A stretch of 64,000 nucleotides of DNA from Aminomonas paucivorans DSM 12260. Its GTDB lineage: Bacteria > Synergistota > Synergistia > Synergistales > Synergistaceae. The stretch covers positions 372,001 through 436,000 of the forward strand of contig NZ_CM001022.1 in assembly GCF_000165795.1 (NCBI RefSeq), written 5' to 3'. The translations under genes and the position numbers were made by a program. Below, in pieces: positions 38,581-47,703 of the stretch (the stretch's first letter is position 1; each line of letters starts with the position of its first letter). Under the pieces are notes generated by a model. That model was not told the origin of the DNA. It did not search any database and was given only the letters and a program-made list of their open reading frames with translations.

Positions 38581-39216
38581 TCACCCCTCGTCCAGGAGCC
38601 GGTAGGTGTACAGGGGTCTCCCGGGGCGGCCGTCCTGGTAGACCACCGCCTGTTCCACCTGCTTGCGGGAGGAGAGGAACTCCAGGTACCGGCGCACCGT
38701 GGGGTAGGAGAGCCCCGTCTCCGCCGCCACCTCCTGGGAGGTGGGGCGGTGGTCCCGGGCGCGGAAGCTCCGCAGGGCCGCGAGCACCCGTTCCAGGGTG
38801 TCGTGGTGGATGTGTTTCGGCGTGGCGGACAGGGCGGCCTCCTTCATCCGGGCCAGGGAGGCGTGCAGATGGATCCGGGCGGCGAAGTCCGCCAGCTTCA
38901 CGGGCTTGGTGACGAAGTCGTCCGCCCCCGCCTCCAGCATCTCCTGGGCGATCTCCAGTCGCTCCTCCACCGTCAGGCCCAGCAGCACCACCGTCTTGGA
39001 GAGCTTCCGAGCCCGGCGCAGGAACTCCGCCCCGCTCATCTGGGGCATGTGGTAGTCCACCAGCATCAGGTCCAAGGCCCCTTCGGCCACCCAGCCCAGG
39101 GCGACCTCCGCATCGCTGGTGACGCTCATGGTCCAGCCCTGGCTGCGCCCCATGGCCTCCAGGGTGTAGAGGATGCCCCGATCGTCGTCCAGTACCCCGA
39201 TGGAAAGCTCCGTCAC
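38581..39216 (-). CDS. Response regulator with HTH output (CitB/DcuR-like)
   Basis: A 211-residue regulator. The receiver domain (about 1-120) has LDDDRG, acceptor Asp in LVDYHMPQMSG and Lys in VTKPVK. The C-terminal part has a winged helix-turn-helix pattern (PTSQEVAAETGLSYPTVRRYLEFL, then GRPLYTYRL), like CitB/DcuR family regulators of organic-acid and amino-acid metabolism. GTG start at 39216, preceded by GGAGGAG, overlaps the kinase stop (GTGA), so this is its cognate partner. The target genes are not evident; the neighbouring dipeptidase and dehydratase genes are candidates only by position. Confidence 0.88.
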   Translation of the reverse strand: MTELSIGVLDDDRGILYTLEAMGRSQGWTMSVTSDAEVALGWVAEGALDLMLVDYHMPQMSGAEFLRRARKLSKTVVLLGLTVEERLEIAQEMLEAGADDFVTKPVKLADFAARIHLHASLARMKEAALSATPKHIHHDTLERVLAALRSFRARDHRPTSQEVAAETGLSYPTVRRYLEFLSSRKQVEQAVVYQDGRPGRPLYTYRLLDEG

Positions 39217-40610
39217 GCCCTCTCCTCCTTCCGCTCTTCCCGAAGGGGAAGGCTCAGGGTCACTTCCGTCCAGGAGCCCTCCCGACGGACCGCGAGGGTC
39301 CCCCCGTGTTCCCCCGCCACGTCCTCCACGAAAGGCAGGCCCAGCCCCGTGGAGCCCCAGAGGGATTTCCCCGGCCGGGGGTCCTCCCGGAAGCCCGGGC
39401 CGTTGTCCCGGACTCGAAAGGCCAGCGTCTCCGCCTCCCGGAAGACCCGCAGGGAGACGCTCCCCTCCGGGGTTGCCTCCACCGCCCGGGCGGCGTTGTC
39501 CAGCAGGTTCACCAGGGCCCGGGAGAACCGCACCAGGTTCAGGTCCAGGGGGACCCCCAGGTCCTCCCGCCGTGCCTCCACCTGCACCCGAGGCCACCAG
39601 GGCAGGGGGGTGACCTGGCTTCGGGTGTAGTCCAGCACCTCTCCTGCGGTGATCCGGCGGCGCCACCGGGGGTTCAGGATCTCCGAGATCAGGTCGTTCA
39701 TGGTGGTGGCGGACCGGAAGATCACCTCCCCGTGGTCCCGGCAGAAGGGGTCCTCAGCCTGCTGGCGCAGCAGGTCTCCCAGGCCCAGCACCGCCGTGAG
39801 GGGGCGCTTGAGGTCGTGCACCAGCCGCTGGAGTTCCAGGAGCCCCCGGGTGCGGATCCGCTCCTCCCGAAGGCGGGCCAGCTCCCGCTCCTGCCGGGCG
39901 ATGCGGCGCTGCTGCCGCACCTGCCGGTCTCCCGCCACCAGAAGCCCCGTGGTCACCAACCCTCCCGAGAAGACCCCCAGAAAGGCCACGGACCCCGCCA
40001 GGTCCAGCACCTCCGCCCTGTCCAGGATGACCGAGAGGGTCTTGAGGGTCGCCGCCAGCTCTCCCTGGCCGAAGCCGAAGGGGGTGAGGGCGGGGATCAC
40101 GTCCAGCCACTGGAAGGAGCCCAGAAGAAGCCCCAGGGCCAGGGCCTTGTTGGGCCAACCCGGGACGGCGTCGGTGAGCCAGGCCACCAGCCAGACGCTC
40201 AGGGCGCTCAGGAGAAAGGAGACCCCCATGTGCAGGGCCGCCCGGTGTTCCAGGAGCCCCGCGGCGTGGAGGCACAGGGGGATGGCGAGAAGGGGCAGAA
40301 ACCGGCTCCAGGGGGGGAGCTGGGGATTGTTCCGGGAAAGGTAGTCTCCCAGGAGGAACCATCCCAGATAGAGCATCCAGGCGGAGCAGGTGTTGAGGAA
40401 CACCAGCCAGAAGGAGGCCGCCACCAGGTAGCCGCTGTCCCCGAACCGGGCCGCCAGGTCGAAGGAGCGGAAGACCGGCCGGAAGGGTTGAGGCACGAAG
40501 AGGGAGGCTCCCCACCCCGCCAGGAGCAGCACCCCCCAGACCCGCTCCGTCTGGAGGGAGAGGGGGATGGGGCGGTAGGGGTGGGGCGGATCCGGGGTGG
40601 TCCGGGGCAT
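39213..40610 (-). CDS. Membrane sensor histidine kinase
   Basis: About 465 residues. Seven or so hydrophobic segments fill the N-terminal ~225 residues (VWGVLLLAGWGASLFV, YLVAASFWLVFLNTCSAWMLYLGWFLLGDYL and others), a 7TM-like input region. A coiled-coil linker (RQERELARLREERIR), the phospho-acceptor region LVHDLKRPLTAVLGLGDLL and an ATPase domain with NLLDNAARAVEA and DNGPGF follow. The ATG at 40610 has a distant GGAGG (15 bases), so the start is uncertain. It is translationally coupled to the response regulator. Confidence 0.87.
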   Translation of the reverse strand: MPRTTPDPPHPYRPIPLSLQTERVWGVLLLAGWGASLFVPQPFRPVFRSFDLAARFGDSGYLVAASFWLVFLNTCSAWMLYLGWFLLGDYLSRNNPQLPPWSRFLPLLAIPLCLHAAGLLEHRAALHMGVSFLLSALSVWLVAWLTDAVPGWPNKALALGLLLGSFQWLDVIPALTPFGFGQGELAATLKTLSVILDRAEVLDLAGSVAFLGVFSGGLVTTGLLVAGDRQVRQQRRIARQERELARLREERIRTRGLLELQRLVHDLKRPLTAVLGLGDLLRQQAEDPFCRDHGEVIFRSATTMNDLISEILNPRWRRRITAGEVLDYTRSQVTPLPWWPRVQVEARREDLGVPLDLNLVRFSRALVNLLDNAARAVEATPEGSVSLRVFREAETLAFRVRDNGPGFREDPRPGKSLWGSTGLGLPFVEDVAGEHGGTLAVRREGSWTEVTLSLPLREERKEERA

Positions 40611-40765: not shown

Positions 40766-42406
40766 TTACTTCTTGGGCTGGAGCATGGTCTCCCCGAAGC
40801 CCACCTTCTTGAGCCACTCCGTGGGGTAGCCCGGAGAGGTCTGCTTGCCGCTGGGTTCGGTGATGTAGCCGTCGTGGTACTTGCCCACCAGGGTCCAGCC
40901 CAGCTTCCACCAGCCCTCCACCACCTTGGTGGCGTGGGCGTTGGAGTAGTCCGTGAGGAACTTGACCGCCTCGGCGGGGTTCTTCTTGAAGAGATCCGCG
41001 GCCTTCTTCTCCGTGGAGGCCTGGTTGCGGAACGCCTCGTCCTCATAGGTCTTCTGGGCGGCGGTGATGTCCTTCATCATGGCGTCCCAACGGAGCATGG
41101 CCCAGTTGTTCACGAACTGGAAGGCCCAGAAGGCGGAGTTGGGGTCGAACTCGGCGCGCTTGCCCTCCGCGAAGGACTTGGGCACGGAGGTGTTGCCGCA
41201 GTAGAAGGGGACGTACACGGTGGTGTCCGGGGCGTCCTCGCCGAACCACAGCACGCCGCCCACGGGATCGGGCAGCCAGGAGCGGGACTGGGACACGAAG
41301 CTGTAGGAGCAGCGGAACATGGAGATGGCTCGCTCCCAGTCCAGCTTCTTGCGGTCTTCGGGCCGCACGCCCCCGGGGGTGGCGAACCGGTTGGGGTTGC
41401 CGAAGGGACCGGCGGCCAGGCCCTGGGTGAGATCGAAGGGCGTGCCCTCCAGGTGGTCTCGGTACAGTGCCTGGACCTCCCGGACGGAGAGCTTCTTCTC
41501 GGGTTTCACGAAGAGGGGCAGCTCGTCCTTGTAGGCGTCCAGCTTCATGGAGGGGACCACCCGAGCCAGCATCCGCCACTCCCGACGCTGGGCGTAGAAG
41601 GGGGAGCCGTAGGGTTCGGGGTTGTAGACCTTATGGAAGACGAACTTCTCTCCGGGCTTCCACCACCCCTGCTCCTGGGCGAAGGTGAAGACGTTGGAGG
41701 AGGCCATGCAGTTGTCCTTGTCCTTGGGGTTCACCTCGGTGATGCGGGAGCGGTTGGCCCCCACGAAGAAGCTGTCGTCGGGAACCCGCACGGCGGCCCA
41801 CACGGCGCCGGGCTTCTTGTCGCCCTGCTTCCACAGGGGGCCGGGGCCGGCGATCTCGAAGAGCCACACCTCGTTCTTGTCCGCCACGGTGAGGGCCTCG
41901 CCGCCGTCGGCGTAGCCGTACTTCTCCGCGATGGCGCCCATGATCTGGATGGCTTCCCGGGCGGTGGAGGCGCGCTGCAGGGCGTAGACCTCCAGCTGTT
42001 CGATCATCATCCAGGCGTTTTCCTCGCAGAGCAGCTCGTCCCGGCCGCTCCAGGTGTACTCGCCGATCATGACCTGTTTCTCGTTCATGAAGGGGTAGCC
42101 CACGTGGAAGTACGTGAGAGTCTTCTTGGCCTGGGGGATCTCCCCCACCTTCTTGAGGGGCAGATTGGGACGGGTGCCGTGGCAGATCTCCTTGTAGACG
42201 GGGGTCATGGCCCCGTCGGGGAAGGACTGTCCCTTGATGACCTGGATGCGGTTGTCGTACCAGCCGTCGCAGGTGTGGCTGGTCATGATGGACCCGTCCG
42301 AGGTGGCCTTCTTGCCGATGGCGGTGACGGTGCAGGCCAGAGCGGATCCGGCGGTGGCCAGGACCAGTAGCGTGACGCACAGAGCCAGGAAACGATTCCG
42401 TTTCAT
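40766..42406 (-). CDS. Secreted C69-family dipeptidase (copy 1)
   Basis: A 546-residue exported peptidase of family C69 (PepD-like, N-terminal nucleophile fold). The signal peptide (MKRNRFLALCVTLLVLATAG) ends in SALA just before Cys25 of ACTVTAIGKKATSDGS. In C69 the nucleophile is an N-terminal cysteine at exactly this place, so signal peptidase cleavage after ALA would uncover the active site. It is not a lipobox, because Leu is not at -3. Further family motifs are SHTCDGWYDNR, YGYADGGEALTVAD and NSRI-like strands. ATG at 42406 follows GAGGAGG. It is a tandem paralog of the next gene. Confidence 0.92.
   Translation of the reverse strand: MKRNRFLALCVTLLVLATAGSALACTVTAIGKKATSDGSIMTSHTCDGWYDNRIQVIKGQSFPDGAMTPVYKEICHGTRPNLPLKKVGEIPQAKKTLTYFHVGYPFMNEKQVMIGEYTWSGRDELLCEENAWMMIEQLEVYALQRASTAREAIQIMGAIAEKYGYADGGEALTVADKNEVWLFEIAGPGPLWKQGDKKPGAVWAAVRVPDDSFFVGANRSRITEVNPKDKDNCMASSNVFTFAQEQGWWKPGEKFVFHKVYNPEPYGSPFYAQRREWRMLARVVPSMKLDAYKDELPLFVKPEKKLSVREVQALYRDHLEGTPFDLTQGLAAGPFGNPNRFATPGGVRPEDRKKLDWERAISMFRCSYSFVSQSRSWLPDPVGGVLWFGEDAPDTTVYVPFYCGNTSVPKSFAEGKRAEFDPNSAFWAFQFVNNWAMLRWDAMMKDITAAQKTYEDEAFRNQASTEKKAADLFKKNPAEAVKFLTDYSNAHATKVVEGWWKLGWTLVGKYHDGYITEPSGKQTSPGYPTEWLKKVGFGETMLQPKK
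40770..40935. repeat. Direct repeat copy A, 3' end of dipeptidase gene 1
   Basis: About 166 bp matching 42559-42724 with three mismatches, including 82 identical bases at the 3' end. The rest of the two genes is far more diverged, so this looks like local gene conversion or strong constraint on the C-terminus. Confidence 0.85.
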
Positions 42407-42502
42407 GAGTGTTCTTCCTCCTCTTCCCTTACCTAGAGGTGCAAAACCGACCTTGTCTACGCGTAAGACCACGGATCCGAGGGGCACCACCTCCCGCATG
42501 TG

Positions 42503-42554: not shown

Positions 42555-44219
42555 TCAGTTCTTGGGCTGGAGCATGGTCTCCCCGAAGCCCACCTTCTTG
42601 AGCCACTCCGTGGGGTAGCCCGGAGAGGTCTGCTTGCCGCCGGGCTCGGTGATGTAGCCGTCGTGGTACTTGCCCACCAGGGTCCAACCCAGCTTCCACC
42701 AGCCCTCCACCACCTTGGTGGCGTTGGCGTTGCTGTAGTCGGTGAGGAGCTTCACCGCCTCCGCGGGGTTCTTCTTGTAGAGATCCGCGGCCTGCTTCTC
42801 GATGGAGGGCTGATTGAGGAATGCGTCGTCCTCGTAGCCCTTCTGAGCGGCCCGGATGTCCTTCATCATGGCGTCCCAGCGCAGATTCGCCCAGTTGGAC
42901 ACGAACTGGAAGGCCCAGAAGGCGGAATCCCGGTCGAACTCCGCCCGCTTGCCCTCGGCGATGCACTTGGGGGTGCTGGTGTTGCCGCAGTAGAAAGGCA
43001 GGTACACGGTGCTGTGAGGGGCGTCCATGCCCACCCAGGCCACGCCGCCCACGGGATCGGGCAGCCAGGAGCGGGATTGGGACACGAAGCTGTAGGAGCA
43101 GCGGAAGATGGAGATGGCCCGCTCCCACTCGGTGTTCTCGTAGCCCTTGGGGGCCAGGGACGCGGGGGTCTTCCACCGGTCCGGGGTGCCGAAGGGATCG
43201 GCGGCGAGGCCCTTGGTCAGGTCGTAGGGGGTGCCCTCGTAGTGGTCCCGCAGGATGGCCATGATGTCCCGGACGGAGAGCTTCTTCTCGGGTTTCACGA
43301 AGAGGGGGTAGTCCGTGTTCCGGGGATCCTGGGCGGGGTCGAACTTCTGGGATGGGGCGAGGGTGGAGTAGACCCTCCACAGCCGCCGCTTCTGGTTGAA
43401 CAGGCGGGGGTAGGGGTTCTCGCCGTAGGCCTTCTTGAAGCTGAAGGTCGTCCCGGGCTTCCACCAGCCCTGATCCTTGGCGAAGTCCGTCAGGTTGGTG
43501 CTGGCCAGGAAGTGGTCCTGATCCGCGGGGTTCACCTCGCCGATCCGGGAGGTGTTGGTGCTCACGGTGACGCTGTCGTCGGGCACCCGCACCGCCACCC
43601 AGTGGGCGCCGGGCTTGCCCGAACCGGGCTTCCACAGGGGGCCGGGGCCCACGATCTCGAAGAGCCAGGCCTCCTGGGTGTCCGCCAGGGTGAGGGCCTC
43701 GCCGTAGTCCCCGTAGCCGTACTGCTCCGCCAGGGCGCCCATGATCTTGATGGCCTCCCGGGCGGTCTTGGCCCGCTGGAGGGCGAAGACCTCAAGCTGC
43801 TCGATGGTGAACCAGCCGGTCTCGTTGACGCACTCCTCCCGGCCGTCTATGGTGGTTTCCCCGATCATGAGCTGGTGCTCGTTCATGAAGGGGTACCCCG
43901 AGTGGAAGTAGGTGTAGGTCTGGGCCACCTGGGGGATCTCCCCCACCTTCTGCAGGGGAGCGGTGGGCTTGGTCTGGTAGCAGAGGTTCTTGTACACCGG
44001 GGCGGTGGAGCCGGCGGGGAAGGTCTTGCCGGGGACCACCACCACGCGCTGGTCATACCAGCCGTCCACGGTGTGGCTGGTCATGACGGACCCGTCGACG
44101 GTGGCCTTTTTGCCCACCAGGATGGAGGTGCAGGCCAGGGCTGCGGACTGGATCGACAGCAGGAGCCCCAGGGTCAGGGCGAGGGACAGAGTCTTCGAGG
44201 TGCGTCGTGATGCATGCAT
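42555..44219 (-). CDS. Secreted C69-family dipeptidase (copy 2)
   Basis: A 554-residue paralog of the preceding peptidase. The signal peptide ends IQSAALA before Cys30 (ACTSILVGKKATVDGS), so maturation should again expose the N-terminal cysteine nucleophile. Matching motifs are SHTVDGWYDQR, YGYGDYGEALTLAD and a shared FRCSYSFVSQSRSWLPDPVGG stretch near the middle. ATG at 44219 follows AGGAGG by about 8 bases. Located between copy 1 and the amidohydrolase gene, on the same strand. Likely role: cleave peptides outside the cytoplasmic membrane. Substrate preference differs perhaps between the copies; this cannot be read from sequence. Confidence 0.92.
   Translation of the reverse strand: MHASRRTSKTLSLALTLGLLLSIQSAALACTSILVGKKATVDGSVMTSHTVDGWYDQRVVVVPGKTFPAGSTAPVYKNLCYQTKPTAPLQKVGEIPQVAQTYTYFHSGYPFMNEHQLMIGETTIDGREECVNETGWFTIEQLEVFALQRAKTAREAIKIMGALAEQYGYGDYGEALTLADTQEAWLFEIVGPGPLWKPGSGKPGAHWVAVRVPDDSVTVSTNTSRIGEVNPADQDHFLASTNLTDFAKDQGWWKPGTTFSFKKAYGENPYPRLFNQKRRLWRVYSTLAPSQKFDPAQDPRNTDYPLFVKPEKKLSVRDIMAILRDHYEGTPYDLTKGLAADPFGTPDRWKTPASLAPKGYENTEWERAISIFRCSYSFVSQSRSWLPDPVGGVAWVGMDAPHSTVYLPFYCGNTSTPKCIAEGKRAEFDRDSAFWAFQFVSNWANLRWDAMMKDIRAAQKGYEDDAFLNQPSIEKQAADLYKKNPAEAVKLLTDYSNANATKVVEGWWKLGWTLVGKYHDGYITEPGGKQTSPGYPTEWLKKVGFGETMLQPKN
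42559..42724. repeat. Direct repeat copy B, 3' end of dipeptidase gene 2
   Basis: Partner of 40770-40935; about 166 bp with three mismatches. Confidence 0.85.
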
Positions 44220-44390: not shown

Positions 44391-45563
44391 TCAGTCGAAG
44401 GCCACCCGATCCGCCGGAGCCTTCGACGGGTCCTGCAGGAACGCCCCGGTGCCCCGGGCCACCACGTCCTTGTAGCGGGGCACCCCCTGGATCGTTACGC
44501 CCTGGGCGGGGTCGTTCTGGGAGTAGATGTCCAGCACCGTCAGCAGGGTGGAGATGTGCCGCCCCACCCGCACGTCGATGGGCCAGCCGTTTTCGTCGAT
44601 GGGGGCGTAGAGCAGCTTGTGGGCCCCCGCCGCCATGACGAAGGGATCCTTGCCCGTCATGAGCAGGTGTTCGTCCGTCACCCCCCGGACTCGGTCCAGG
44701 AAGGGTTCCGGGGACTCGAAGAGCACGGACATGGCGTCGGTGTGGTCCCCGATCTCCCGGTGGGAGAGACCGTGCAGCCCCGCGGGGGAGAACTCCATGG
44801 CGATGGGAACCGGCAGTTCCTGGGCGCTCAGGGTCATGGAGGCCATGGCCGCCACCGCCTGGGCCTTCTCGTGGGCCACGATGGTGTTGATGACGGGGTA
44901 CTCCAGTTCCGCTTCGTGGAAGTCCACCGCCAGGCCCACCTTCTCCTTGCGGATCAGCTCGGAGAGGGCGTAGGTGGTGCGCTCCACCAGCAGGCCGTCG
45001 GGCTTGCCGGGCCAGCAGCGGTTCAGATTACGCACGTCCATGTAGGCCAGCATCTGTCCGCTGGGGTAGTGGACGTATACCTCCGGGTCGGGCCAGGAGT
45101 CCAGGGGGTTGGCGTTCCGGTCCCCCATGCGGTAGACCTGTTCCCCCCAGGGAGTGGGAACCCGGTAGAAGAGGGGATAGGCCTCCCCGGGGCGGGTCAC
45201 CGTGGAAGCGCTCCGGTTGGCCCGGATGACCACGAAGAGCTTGCCCTGGGTGGGCACCGCCGTCTCCACCAGCATCTGGGCGGTGAGGTTGGCGCTGGGC
45301 TCCTCCGGGTGGGTGCCCCCGATGACCAGGGCCGCCCCGCCGGGCTTGCCGCTGTCCAGCACGTAGACGTTGCAGTCGTTGATCGTGTCCTTGATGCCGG
45401 GGAAGTAATCCCCCAGCTTGACCACCTTGGTGACCCCCGGGCCCAGGACCGTGGGCTCCCGGAAGGTGCGGTGCTGGCGGAACTCCAGCCCCGCGAAGGT
45501 CGCCAGGACCAGGGCTGCGGCGACGGAGAGGATCTTGACGAGGTTCAGTCGGCGTTCGTTCAT
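44391..45563 (-). CDS. Membrane-anchored succinylglutamate desuccinylase/aspartoacylase-like amidohydrolase
   Basis: A 390-residue protein of the M14-type AstE/AspA superfamily. One N-terminal membrane segment (about 10-28) suggests it faces outward as an anchored enzyme. The zinc-binding pair is in GGTHPEEPSAN (H85 and E88), with a second motif VDFHEAELEYP (H215, E216) later. Related enzymes cleave the acyl group from N-acyl amino acids or trim C-terminal residues. Located nine bases downstream of a 54-residue membrane protein gene and the permease gene, it probably acts on the substrate of that transporter. Actual substrate unknown. Confidence 0.85.
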   Translation of the reverse strand: MNERRLNLVKILSVAAALVLATFAGLEFRQHRTFREPTVLGPGVTKVVKLGDYFPGIKDTINDCNVYVLDSGKPGGAALVIGGTHPEEPSANLTAQMLVETAVPTQGKLFVVIRANRSASTVTRPGEAYPLFYRVPTPWGEQVYRMGDRNANPLDSWPDPEVYVHYPSGQMLAYMDVRNLNRCWPGKPDGLLVERTTYALSELIRKEKVGLAVDFHEAELEYPVINTIVAHEKAQAVAAMASMTLSAQELPVPIAMEFSPAGLHGLSHREIGDHTDAMSVLFESPEPFLDRVRGVTDEHLLMTGKDPFVMAAGAHKLLYAPIDENGWPIDVRVGRHISTLLTVLDIYSQNDPAQGVTIQGVPRYKDVVARGTGAFLQDPSKAPADRVAFD

Positions 45564-45573
45564 GGAGAGCCTC

Positions 45574-45738
45574 CTACTTCACCCGGAGGATCCGGAGGAC
45601 GAAGGGAATCAGGATCACCGAGCAGAGAACCGCCTCCTGGGGGTCCCGGGTTTTCCAGAGATTCCGGCCGAGGATGAAGGCGAAGAACGCCGTCATCCCG
45701 TAGTAGAGCACGCTGATGACGCTGTCGAGCACGGGCAT
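45574..45738 (-). CDS. 54-residue membrane protein next to the permease
   Basis: A short frame with ATG at 45738 and TAG at 45574-45576, fitting exactly between the permease stop (4 bases away) and the amidohydrolase start (10 bases away). The product begins MPVLDSVISVLYYGMTAFF, has a charged middle (GRNLWKTRDPQEA) and a second hydrophobic stretch (VLCSVILIPFVLRIL) ending RVK. Two membrane segments with this spacing suggest a small accessory subunit of the permease. I do not recognise a family. The tight spacing and AGGAGG-type site support it as a real gene. Confidence 0.72.
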   Translation of the reverse strand: MPVLDSVISVLYYGMTAFFAFILGRNLWKTRDPQEAVLCSVILIPFVLRILRVK

Positions 45739-45742
45739 GGGT

Positions 45743-47032
45743 CTAGCCTCCCACCAGGAACGCCAGGTTCTTGCTGAACACCAGGAAGAGGGTGGCCAGC
45801 AGCGAGATCAGGGCGGCGGGCACCAGGCAGGCCTTGAGGAAGTCGCCGTAGTACCGTCCCTTGTAGTCCAGTTCCATCACCACCGCCCGACCCACCACCG
45901 CGGTGGGGGGGAGGCAGTCTCCCAGGGGCCACATCACCGCCATGGCGGAGAGGGCGATCACCGGGTCCATGCCCTTCATGTTGAAGAGCATGATGAGGGG
46001 CACCCCCAGCAGGGGAGCCGCGGCGTACTGCACCGCCCCCTCGGAGATCGGCAGGATCAGGAAGAGGGTGGCGAAGAGCACCCCCAGGGGCAGGGTGACC
46101 ACCCCCAGGGAGATGAGCCCCCGGCTGCCGCTTGCGGCCATCACCTGGATGAGGACCCCCACCACCACCATGATGCCCACCAGGGGCATGAGGGAGCGGG
46201 TGGTGGTGCAGGCGATGTCGAACAGGGGAAGGCGCACGGGGCTCACCAGGAGCACCGCCGCCGCGGAGAGCAGGAAGATCAGGGGCAGTCCCAGGATGGG
46301 CATCCGGAAGGGGAAGAGGCGTCCTGCCACCACCAGGGCGAAGAGCACCCCGAAGGGCAGCAGCACCCGTCCCCAGGACATGTCCTTCGGGGGCTCCGGC
46401 AGGGTCGCCAGGGCGGATTCCAGGTCGATGGGCTCTCCCTTCCCCGCCAGGAGGAACATGGAGAGGAGCGCTCCGGTCACGGAGAGCACCAGGAGAGGCA
46501 GCATGAAGCCCACGTAGGGCATGTTGGCCCCCGCGGCGGCCATCATGGCCCACAGGTTGATGGGGGGCGCGGCGGCGCTCATGGCGGCGCAGAGGAAGAC
46601 GATGGCGGCGGCCCGGGTGTGGGGGACCCCCATGGTGAGGAGCACCGATCCCACCAGGGTGCCCACGGTGAGCACCGTGGCGGCTCCGGACCCGGTGAGG
46701 GCCCCCGGGACCAGCATCACCAGGGTGAGCAGCAGCAGACAGACGGAGCGGCGGGCGTGGAAGGTTCGCACGATCCAACGGACGATGAACGCGATGCCCC
46801 CCGCCTCCTTCAGGAGGTTCATGAAGAAGGTGGCGGTGAGGAAGATGAGACACACGTCGAAGTAGGTGAAGGCTCCCTCCACGAGGTGCCGCACCGGCAG
46901 GCCGTGGAAGTGGGCGACCGCTCCCGCCACAGCCCCGGCGAGCATGGAGAGCTCCGTGTTGAGGCGCAGGAACTTGGCGACCCCGAAGGCCGCCACGATG
47001 ACGGCCAAGACGAACCCGGCATGGATGAACAT
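45743..47032 (-). CDS. DctM-like / ion-transporter superfamily permease
   Basis: A 429-residue polytopic protein, about 12 membrane segments, resembling TRAP large subunits and other C4-dicarboxylate or citrate-type permeases. Motifs are GALTGSGAATVLTVGTLVG, AAPPINLWAMMAAAGANMPY (paired re-entrant loop pattern) and WPLGDCLPPTAVVGRA in the second half. No normal DctP-type binding protein or DctQ small subunit is present; instead a DUF6305 periplasmic protein lies upstream and a 54-residue membrane protein downstream, so these may replace them. Substrate unknown, perhaps a product of the adjacent amidohydrolase or peptidases. Confidence 0.85.
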   Translation of the reverse strand: MFIHAGFVLAVIVAAFGVAKFLRLNTELSMLAGAVAGAVAHFHGLPVRHLVEGAFTYFDVCLIFLTATFFMNLLKEAGGIAFIVRWIVRTFHARRSVCLLLLTLVMLVPGALTGSGAATVLTVGTLVGSVLLTMGVPHTRAAAIVFLCAAMSAAAPPINLWAMMAAAGANMPYVGFMLPLLVLSVTGALLSMFLLAGKGEPIDLESALATLPEPPKDMSWGRVLLPFGVLFALVVAGRLFPFRMPILGLPLIFLLSAAAVLLVSPVRLPLFDIACTTTRSLMPLVGIMVVVGVLIQVMAASGSRGLISLGVVTLPLGVLFATLFLILPISEGAVQYAAAPLLGVPLIMLFNMKGMDPVIALSAMAVMWPLGDCLPPTAVVGRAVVMELDYKGRYYGDFLKACLVPAALISLLATLFLVFSKNLAFLVGG

Positions 47033-47099
47033 GGCGAACTCCCTTTCAGAAGAGGATCACAGGTCGGAAGGCTTGCGGGCCTTCCTCGAAGGTACGAAA

Positions 47100-47124
47100 C
47101 GGGGGATCCTCTCGGATCCCCCCG
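47100..47124 (-). terminator. Partial terminator between DUF6305 gene and permease gene
   Basis: A 9-10-bp stem (GGGGGATCC / GGATCCCCC) with a TCTC loop, nine bases after the DUF6305 stop; on the minus strand GTTTCG follows. A second weaker hairpin (GGAAGGC / GCCTTCC) lies 30 bases further on. This could lower expression of the membrane genes relative to the soluble periplasmic protein. Confidence 0.55.
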
Positions 47125-47133
47125 CTGAAAAGG

Positions 47134-47703
47134 CTACTTCGCCAGTTTCTTCATGCCCGCCCCGATGCCCAGGGCATCGGAGACCTTGAGGATGGGCTTG
47201 CCGTTGGCGGCGGCGTACTTGGTGAAGTAGCCGTCCTTGTCGCTGTCGTTCACCACCAGGATCAGACCGGCGTCGGGCAGGACCGCGTCGATGGAGGTCT
47301 GGTCGCTCTTGTCCACCCGGCGGGACATGCCCTCCACGTGGGCGGCCACCACCAGCAAGCCCTGCTTCTTGGCCTCGGCGATGAGTTCCTTCACCCGCTT
47401 GACCTCCGTGTCCACGTTGGTGCCTGCGGCGCCCATGCCTTTCATGCTGGTGCCGGTGGTGACGATGAGGGTCTTGTAGCCCTTGCCCTTCAGGTCCGCG
47501 GCGGCGAGTTTGTTGTTGTGTTCCGCCGCGAGCTTGGCCTGGACGCAGGACATCTTCACCATCACCGCGCCGGGGCTCTGGCCGCAGGTGGTGACGATGA
47601 TGGGCTGTCCCACCGGGGGCAGGGGCTTGTCGGCGGCGAAGGCCGAGGGGGCGAGGGCCAGGACGGCGGCGGTCAGGAGCAGCAGTGCCAGGTGCTTGCG
47701 CAT
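47134..47703 (-). CDS. DUF6305 family periplasmic protein
   Basis: A 189-residue exported protein: signal peptide MRKHLALLLLTAAVLALAPSAFA, then a compact alpha/beta domain starting PVGQPIIVTTCGQSPGAVMV, with LIVTTGTSMKGMGAAG, LLVVAAHVEGMSRR, SIDAVLPDAGLILVVND and GKPILKV. The regular strand-loop pattern suggests a Rossmann-like fold. The family (DUF6305) has no known function. It is first in a minus-strand operon with the permease, which makes a role as periplasmic ligand-binding subunit reasonable; I infer this only from location and order. Good SD (GAGGAGG) and promoter upstream. Confidence 0.85.
   Translation of the reverse strand: MRKHLALLLLTAAVLALAPSAFAADKPLPPVGQPIIVTTCGQSPGAVMVKMSCVQAKLAAEHNNKLAAADLKGKGYKTLIVTTGTSMKGMGAAGTNVDTEVKRVKELIAEAKKQGLLVVAAHVEGMSRRVDKSDQTSIDAVLPDAGLILVVNDSDKDGYFTKYAAANGKPILKVSDALGIGAGMKKLAK

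Follow-up and report, generated by a model that had tools for sequence, protein, structure and literature searches.

The 64,000-nucleotide stretch of the Aminomonas paucivorans DSM 12260 genome analysed here (contig NZ_CM001022.1, positions 372,001 to 436,000; referred to as the window) carries a compact four-gene cassette on its minus strand that is tied to the genes of poly-gamma-glutamate (PGA) systems, a link that is well supported by genome comparison. The cassette encodes, in order, a DUF6305 protein of 189 residues with a Sec signal peptide (PF19823; window positions 47134..47703), a DctM-like permease of the IT superfamily (429 residues; 45743..47032), a small membrane protein of 54 residues (45574..45738) and an anchored AstE/M14-like zinc hydrolase of 390 residues (44391..45563). 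The intergenic gaps are 101, 4 and 10 bases, and the ribosome-binding sites are good. An earlier note on this DNA had described four tightly packed minus-strand genes at 44391-47703, and every one of these frames was confirmed. The same note placed a promoter ahead of the DUF6305 gene, a claim that is unsupported because the upstream region holds no sigma-70-like site of 9/12 or better, only a weak 8/12 match picked out by eye. With about an even chance of being correct, the cassette is proposed to be a periplasmic salvage or uptake module that accompanies the PGA system and resembles the tripartite ATP-independent periplasmic (TRAP) transporters.

Gene clustering and annotation of the cassette neighbourhoods identified a recurrent set of partners: gamma-glutamyltranspeptidase (GGT), PgsB, PgsC/CapC, the TIGR04332 'poly-gamma-glutamate system protein', a C69 peptidase and a two-component pair. 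Indeed, PgsB, PgsC and TIGR04332 often lie in the same gene run as the cassette. Across 185 Synergistota genomes, DUF6305 and CapC were found together in 60, DUF6305 only in 8, CapC only in 5 and neither in 112 (Fisher p 1.7e-33, uncorrected for ancestry), which places CapC in 60/68 of the Synergistota genomes with DUF6305. Outside this phylum, 42 genomes with DUF6305 were compared, and CapC was present in 36 and TIGR04332 in 38 of them. Evenly sampled Spirochaetota genomes (198 in all) included ten with CapC, all of which also had TIGR04332, and a full DUF6305 was present in only one of the ten. The cassette thus implies PGA genes and not vice versa, which favours an accessory role in turnover or uptake over a required part in synthesis. 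In A. paucivorans itself the PgsB-PgsC-TIGR04332 genes are located at C1 ~2.583-2.586 Mb, apart from the window cassette. Synergistetes and Fusobacteria have been reported to be rich in PGA capsule genes (PMC5542703), and Fusobacterium nucleatum makes polyglutamate according to Candela 2009, as cited in PMC3815933.

DUF6305 was matched in 69 of the 185 Synergistota genomes (68 above the family cut-off) and in none of 14 control genomes searched alongside them. The neighbourhoods of 120 Synergistota DUF6305 loci were read: 116 contain the permease, 111 the small frame and 110 the hydrolase, and all four genes are present in 110. The genes run DUF6305, permease, small protein, hydrolase and are mostly spaced by a few to about a hundred bases. 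Exceptions to the full set are mostly contig ends or belong to a single genus, g50. Moreover, the A. paucivorans genome contains a second complete four-gene set, the two permeases being 38% identical. Together, this second copy and the constancy of the partners show that the four-gene set is no accident. Profile searches of the same genomes with the permease and the hydrolase recovered nearly the same genome set as DUF6305; only two Synergistota genomes, both fragmented, have the permease clade but no DUF6305 match. Pairwise identities of the four proteins also co-vary (r 0.89-0.96). The earlier note had named DUF6305 genes mostly lacking the permease as the pattern that would speak against its proposal; what was found is DUF6305 with the permease in 116/120 Synergistota loci and in 35/42 others.

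A scan of a genome collection returned 329 DUF6305 loci. The best 80 of the 329, from which taxa were named, include Fusobacterium, Cetobacterium, Clostridium, Tissierellia, Treponema, Rectinema, Atribacteria, Lysobacterales, Comamonadaceae and Dethiosulfatarculus. Beyond Synergistota the cassette extends to Fusobacteriota, Clostridia, Spirochaetota, Atribacterota, Pseudomonadota and Desulfobacterota, at least seven phyla overall. Taxon names are those of the record titles, and single placements may be wrong because many of the records are metagenome-assembled genomes (MAGs). Among the 42 non-Synergistota loci, permease, small protein and hydrolase are all present in 33. The DUF6305 gene is on the opposite strand, yet adjacent, in Atribacteria and in one Actinomycetota MAG. 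At the DNA level, the window's set was found on none of the plasmids in PLSDB.

When the window permease was searched alone it gave no Pfam match, and E 1 was not reached for the DctM family PF06808. Matches to PF06808 were obtained for 20 of 24 aligned family members (best E 9.9e-13), and DctM is the nearest family by sequence, in line with the DctM-like assignment of the earlier note. The predicted structure (mean predicted local distance difference test score, pLDDT, 90.1) shows the IT fold over the whole chain. The top Foldseek match is the isethionate TRAP transporter IseQM (9pym, E 1.6e-8), and VIA superposed the model on ArsB, NaS1, VcINDY and SiaQM over ~400 residues with Z values of 20-28. 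Carriers with the IT fold move small anions, and the model is consistent with the elevator-type carrier that is proposed here.

The window DUF6305 protein matches PF19823 with E 2.6e-48 and 164 bits (cut-off 25). Inspection indicated a Sec signal peptide at approximately residues 1-23. It is the sole soluble secreted member of a gene set in which, as the earlier note had observed, an ordinary binding protein and a DctQ subunit are missing. AlphaFold2 predicts a single Rossmann/flavodoxin-like domain of ~150 residues (mean pLDDT 91.8), and the two-lobed architecture of binding proteins is not seen in the model. In 24 aligned sequences the residues G41, Q42, K77, G84, S86, K88, G89, R128, R129, D157 and F160 are invariant. 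The motifs to which they belong (GQ, SxKGxGxxG, GxxRR and DGxF) follow successive strands of the predicted secondary structure, an arrangement that would fit a ligand-binding site along one edge of the sheet. On this model a role as periplasmic ligand binder or carrier is plausible, if unproven. Besides full cassettes, genus g50 has divergent DUF6305 genes that stand alone or in tandem and lack the permease (L150:3860-5347, L151, L152), and a single genome can have as many as seven DUF6305 matches.

Other identities for DUF6305 were considered. A profile search of the PDB gave chance-level matches only, and Foldseek and VIA comparisons of the model returned a mixture of Rossmann-like folds (best Z ~9) with no stand-out family; a classical binding protein and a known enzyme were both rejected on these results. 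The SGNH/GDSL hydrolases, which are fold neighbours, were also rejected, because the serine after strand 1 is not invariant: position 43 is glycine in 3/24 DUF6305 proteins. One DUF6305 relative weakly matches the NCBIfam S-methyl thiohydantoin desulfurase model (E 2.5e-7; 30 bits, where the cut-off is 450).

The 54-residue protein has two hydrophobic stretches, and the motif P-x-x-L-R-x-x-x-x-K is conserved at its C-terminal end. Y12, P45 and R49 are invariant in 24 sequences, with L48 and K54 nearly so, and the relatives are 40-61 residues long and placed between permease and hydrolase. The small frame is under protein-coding selection: differences at the three codon positions are 0.18, 0.08 and 0.41, and the third position is the most variable in 46/46 disjoint pairs, which identifies the frame as protein-coding, a point on which the proposal of the earlier note depended. 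Pfam gave no credible match, and assignment to any named family was rejected. Neither the window protein nor its 23 aligned relatives matched DctQ at E 10, and 54 residues is far below DctQ length. The fixed gene order and the co-divergence with the permease (r 0.93) make a role as permease subunit plausible.

The hydrolase scores 21.9 bits against the AstE/AspA Pfam family when searched alone, below the cut-off of 25. However, each of the 24 family members reaches E 1 or lower with PF24827 (best E 4.8e-14), and eight match Peptidase_M99. The M14-type assignment of the earlier note holds, as judged from the zinc ligands (HxxE and H) and catalytic glutamate, which are invariant in 24 sequences (H85, E88, H216 and E283, together with N179 and R182). 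By inspection the N-terminus is a signal anchor, and the catalytic domain is predicted to be periplasmic. The nearest proteins in the PDB are N-acetyl-diaminobutyrate deacetylase and its relatives. The enzyme is proposed to be a gamma-glutamyl hydrolase. In Clostridia and relatives a second, shorter AstE-like gene (~245 residues) lies between the anchored hydrolase and PgsB (L206:11352-12083, L211:11166-11909, L218, L224). A single in-frame stop interrupts a few of the hydrolase genes (L073:6046-7233 and others); these may be broken copies or reflect sequencing errors.

The functional unit in the window is probably longer than four genes. Directly downstream of the hydrolase, on the same strand, is a secreted C69-family peptidase (42555..44219; PF03577, E 2.1e-77), followed by a second C69-family peptidase (40766..42499, start probably 42406; NF033678, E 3.4e-57). 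A two-component pair then lies behind its own promoter-like site (40699-40671) and probably forms a separate transcript: a sensor histidine kinase with a multi-helix N-terminal region (39213..40610, start inferred) and a response regulator (38581..39219, start approximate), both on the minus strand. Kinases of the same family lie beside 27/120 cassettes. The pair is a possible regulator of the cassette and, given that the same families flank many cassettes, may sense released products. Just upstream of the cassette, on the same strand, is a YgjP-like metallopeptidase gene (PF01863; 47812-48513), which is not a recurrent cassette neighbour.

GGT or C69 is present at 109/120 Synergistota and 38/42 other DUF6305 loci. 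If cassettes are typed by permease identity, those of the window type have C69 in 32/33 cases and GGT in 1, those of the type of the second A. paucivorans copy have GGT in 51/56 and C69 in 1, and a third type has C69 in 13/13. Because the partners divide so cleanly, each carrier may be adapted to what its own hydrolase releases. Many cassettes are flanked by long frames on the opposite strand (L045:2340-4481, L111:619-2589), which gave no family match and were taken as shadow frames of the GGT and C69 genes. At a few loci a gene of the Asp/Glu racemase family lies upstream of a GGT-type cassette (L046:2978-3802, Pyramidobacter-type), and could bear on D-glutamate in the polymer.

A mechanism that would accommodate these observations begins with PgsB and PgsC, encoded elsewhere in the genome, which would build a polymer of gamma-linked glutamate on the outer side of the inner membrane. 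A secreted N-terminal nucleophile (Ntn) hydrolase, GGT in one cassette type and C69 in the window type, would then cut gamma-glutamyl bonds in the periplasm together with the anchored zinc enzyme. Known enzymes that cleave gamma-PGA include GGT, which acts from the N-terminal side, and PghP, a zinc enzyme resembling carboxypeptidase A (PMC4497714). The anions set free in the periplasm, whether glutamate or short gamma-glutamyl oligomers, may be caught by those loops of DUF6305 that line one edge of the sheet. Finally, the permease and the two-helix small protein, the latter in place of DctQ, would import them by an ion-coupled elevator movement. We infer the substrate and the direction of transport, as well as the roles of DUF6305 as binder and of the small protein as subunit. 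The conserved, unnamed transport set recognized by the earlier note thus stands, while the substrate it suggested, N-acyl amino acids or peptides, is superseded by the link to PGA genes.

Three other explanations were weighed against the salvage module. The cassette could instead act in PGA synthesis or export, where it would release, trim or anchor the nascent polymer in the manner of the Bacillus accessory parts PgsA, CapD and CapE. It adjoins PgsB and PgsC in many loci, and CapA (PF09587) shows no association with CapC in Synergistota (35/65 versus 77/120, p 0.2), so that something else may fill the place of CapA; CapE, moreover, is also very small and is needed for the capsule (Candela 2005, as cited in PMC5542703). 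Against these points, PgsC and TIGR04332 do without the cassette in 9/10 of the CapC-containing Spirochaetota genomes, and the cassette often lies apart from PgsB and PgsC, the window's genome included. IT-fold elevator carriers are in general known to move small solutes and not polymers, and transport of the polymer itself by such a carrier is unlikely. A part in synthesis or export is accordingly considered improbable. The arrangement might also be an ordinary TRAP transporter with a binding protein encoded elsewhere, DUF6305 and the small frame being bystanders, as could be argued from the DctM-like sequence of the permease and from a TRAP permease as its top Foldseek match. This is very hard to reconcile with the retention of DUF6305 and the small frame beside this permease clade across at least seven phyla, and with a clade that in Synergistota stands without DUF6305 only in the two fragmented genomes, and we give it very little credence.

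It is conceivable, though doubtful, that the window-type, C69-linked cassette imports something else, for instance peptides or N-acyl amino acids, and that only the GGT-linked type serves gamma-glutamyl compounds. The sharp division of the partners is consistent with this, as are the naming of C69 enzymes as dipeptidases in NCBIfam and the N-acyl amino acid deacylases that are the nearest PDB relatives of the M14-like protein. However, CapC is found in nearly all DUF6305 genomes irrespective of cassette type, and some window-type cassettes (L105, L111) lie beside PgsB-PgsC-TIGR04332. Several further points count against the salvage module itself. Within the neighbourhoods that were read, GGT or Pgs genes accompany only 7/33 window-type cassettes; most of these cassettes carry C69, and a link of C69 to gamma-glutamyl bonds is not established. 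PgsB of the window's genome scores 93 bits against an NCBIfam equivalog cut-off of 222.7, so the polymer might not be PGA. The p-value for co-occurrence of DUF6305 and CapC is inflated by relatedness. Among solved structures DUF6305 has no close relative, and it may be an enzyme or have a structural role.

As in the TRAP systems (DctP/DctQ/DctM, for instance SiaPQM and IseQM), the large permease of the cassette is DctM-like with the IT fold and is encoded together with a secreted partner and a distinct small membrane protein. However, its secreted partner is a single flavodoxin-like domain rather than a two-lobed DctP or TAXI protein, its small protein of ~50 residues with two hydrophobic stretches has no similarity to DctQ, and the set includes an anchored hydrolase; since DctQ and DctP/TAXI, two features that define TRAP transporters, are absent, it is not classed as a TRAP system. 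DASS/AbgT-type carriers (VcINDY, NaS1, YdaH, MtrF) have the same overall permease fold but work without a secreted partner or small subunit. The Bacillus pgs/cap operons (PgsB-PgsC-PgsA-PgsE, CapD) likewise combine PgsB and PgsC with a nearby GGT-family enzyme and a very small protein, whereas the cassette loci show no link to PgsA and add DUF6305, the IT permease, the M14-like enzyme and TIGR04332. To our knowledge none of these four is part of a Bacillus pgs operon, and the control B. subtilis genome has CapC without DUF6305. The hydrolase has the HxxE...H ligands, N-x-x-R motif and catalytic glutamate of the AstE/aspartoacylase and M14/M99 zinc hydrolases (DoeB, Csd4, PghP), but differs in being membrane-anchored, predicted periplasmic and always beside the permease. 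The individual families are already named; no description of the set as a whole, and no mention of DUF6305 or TIGR04332, was found in the literature searched, which mostly excludes subscription journals and preprints.

PGA has been studied mainly in Bacillus, and little is known of how the polymer is handled in the Gram-negative anaerobes in which its genes are common. With the cassette, one shared and testable function can be proposed for DUF6305, for a permease clade that lacks annotation and for a small protein that had been overlooked; the cassette also predicts enzymes that cut gamma-glutamyl polymers in these bacteria. It may show a carrier in which both of the usual TRAP partners have been replaced. 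Tentatively, and short of an even chance, it could represent a new class of secondary transporter that depends on a secreted partner, in which a flavodoxin-like domain replaces the two-lobed binder and a two-helix peptide of ~50 residues replaces DctQ, and whose dedicated task, in concert with an anchored gamma-glutamyl hydrolase, would be to recycle PGA in at least seven phyla.

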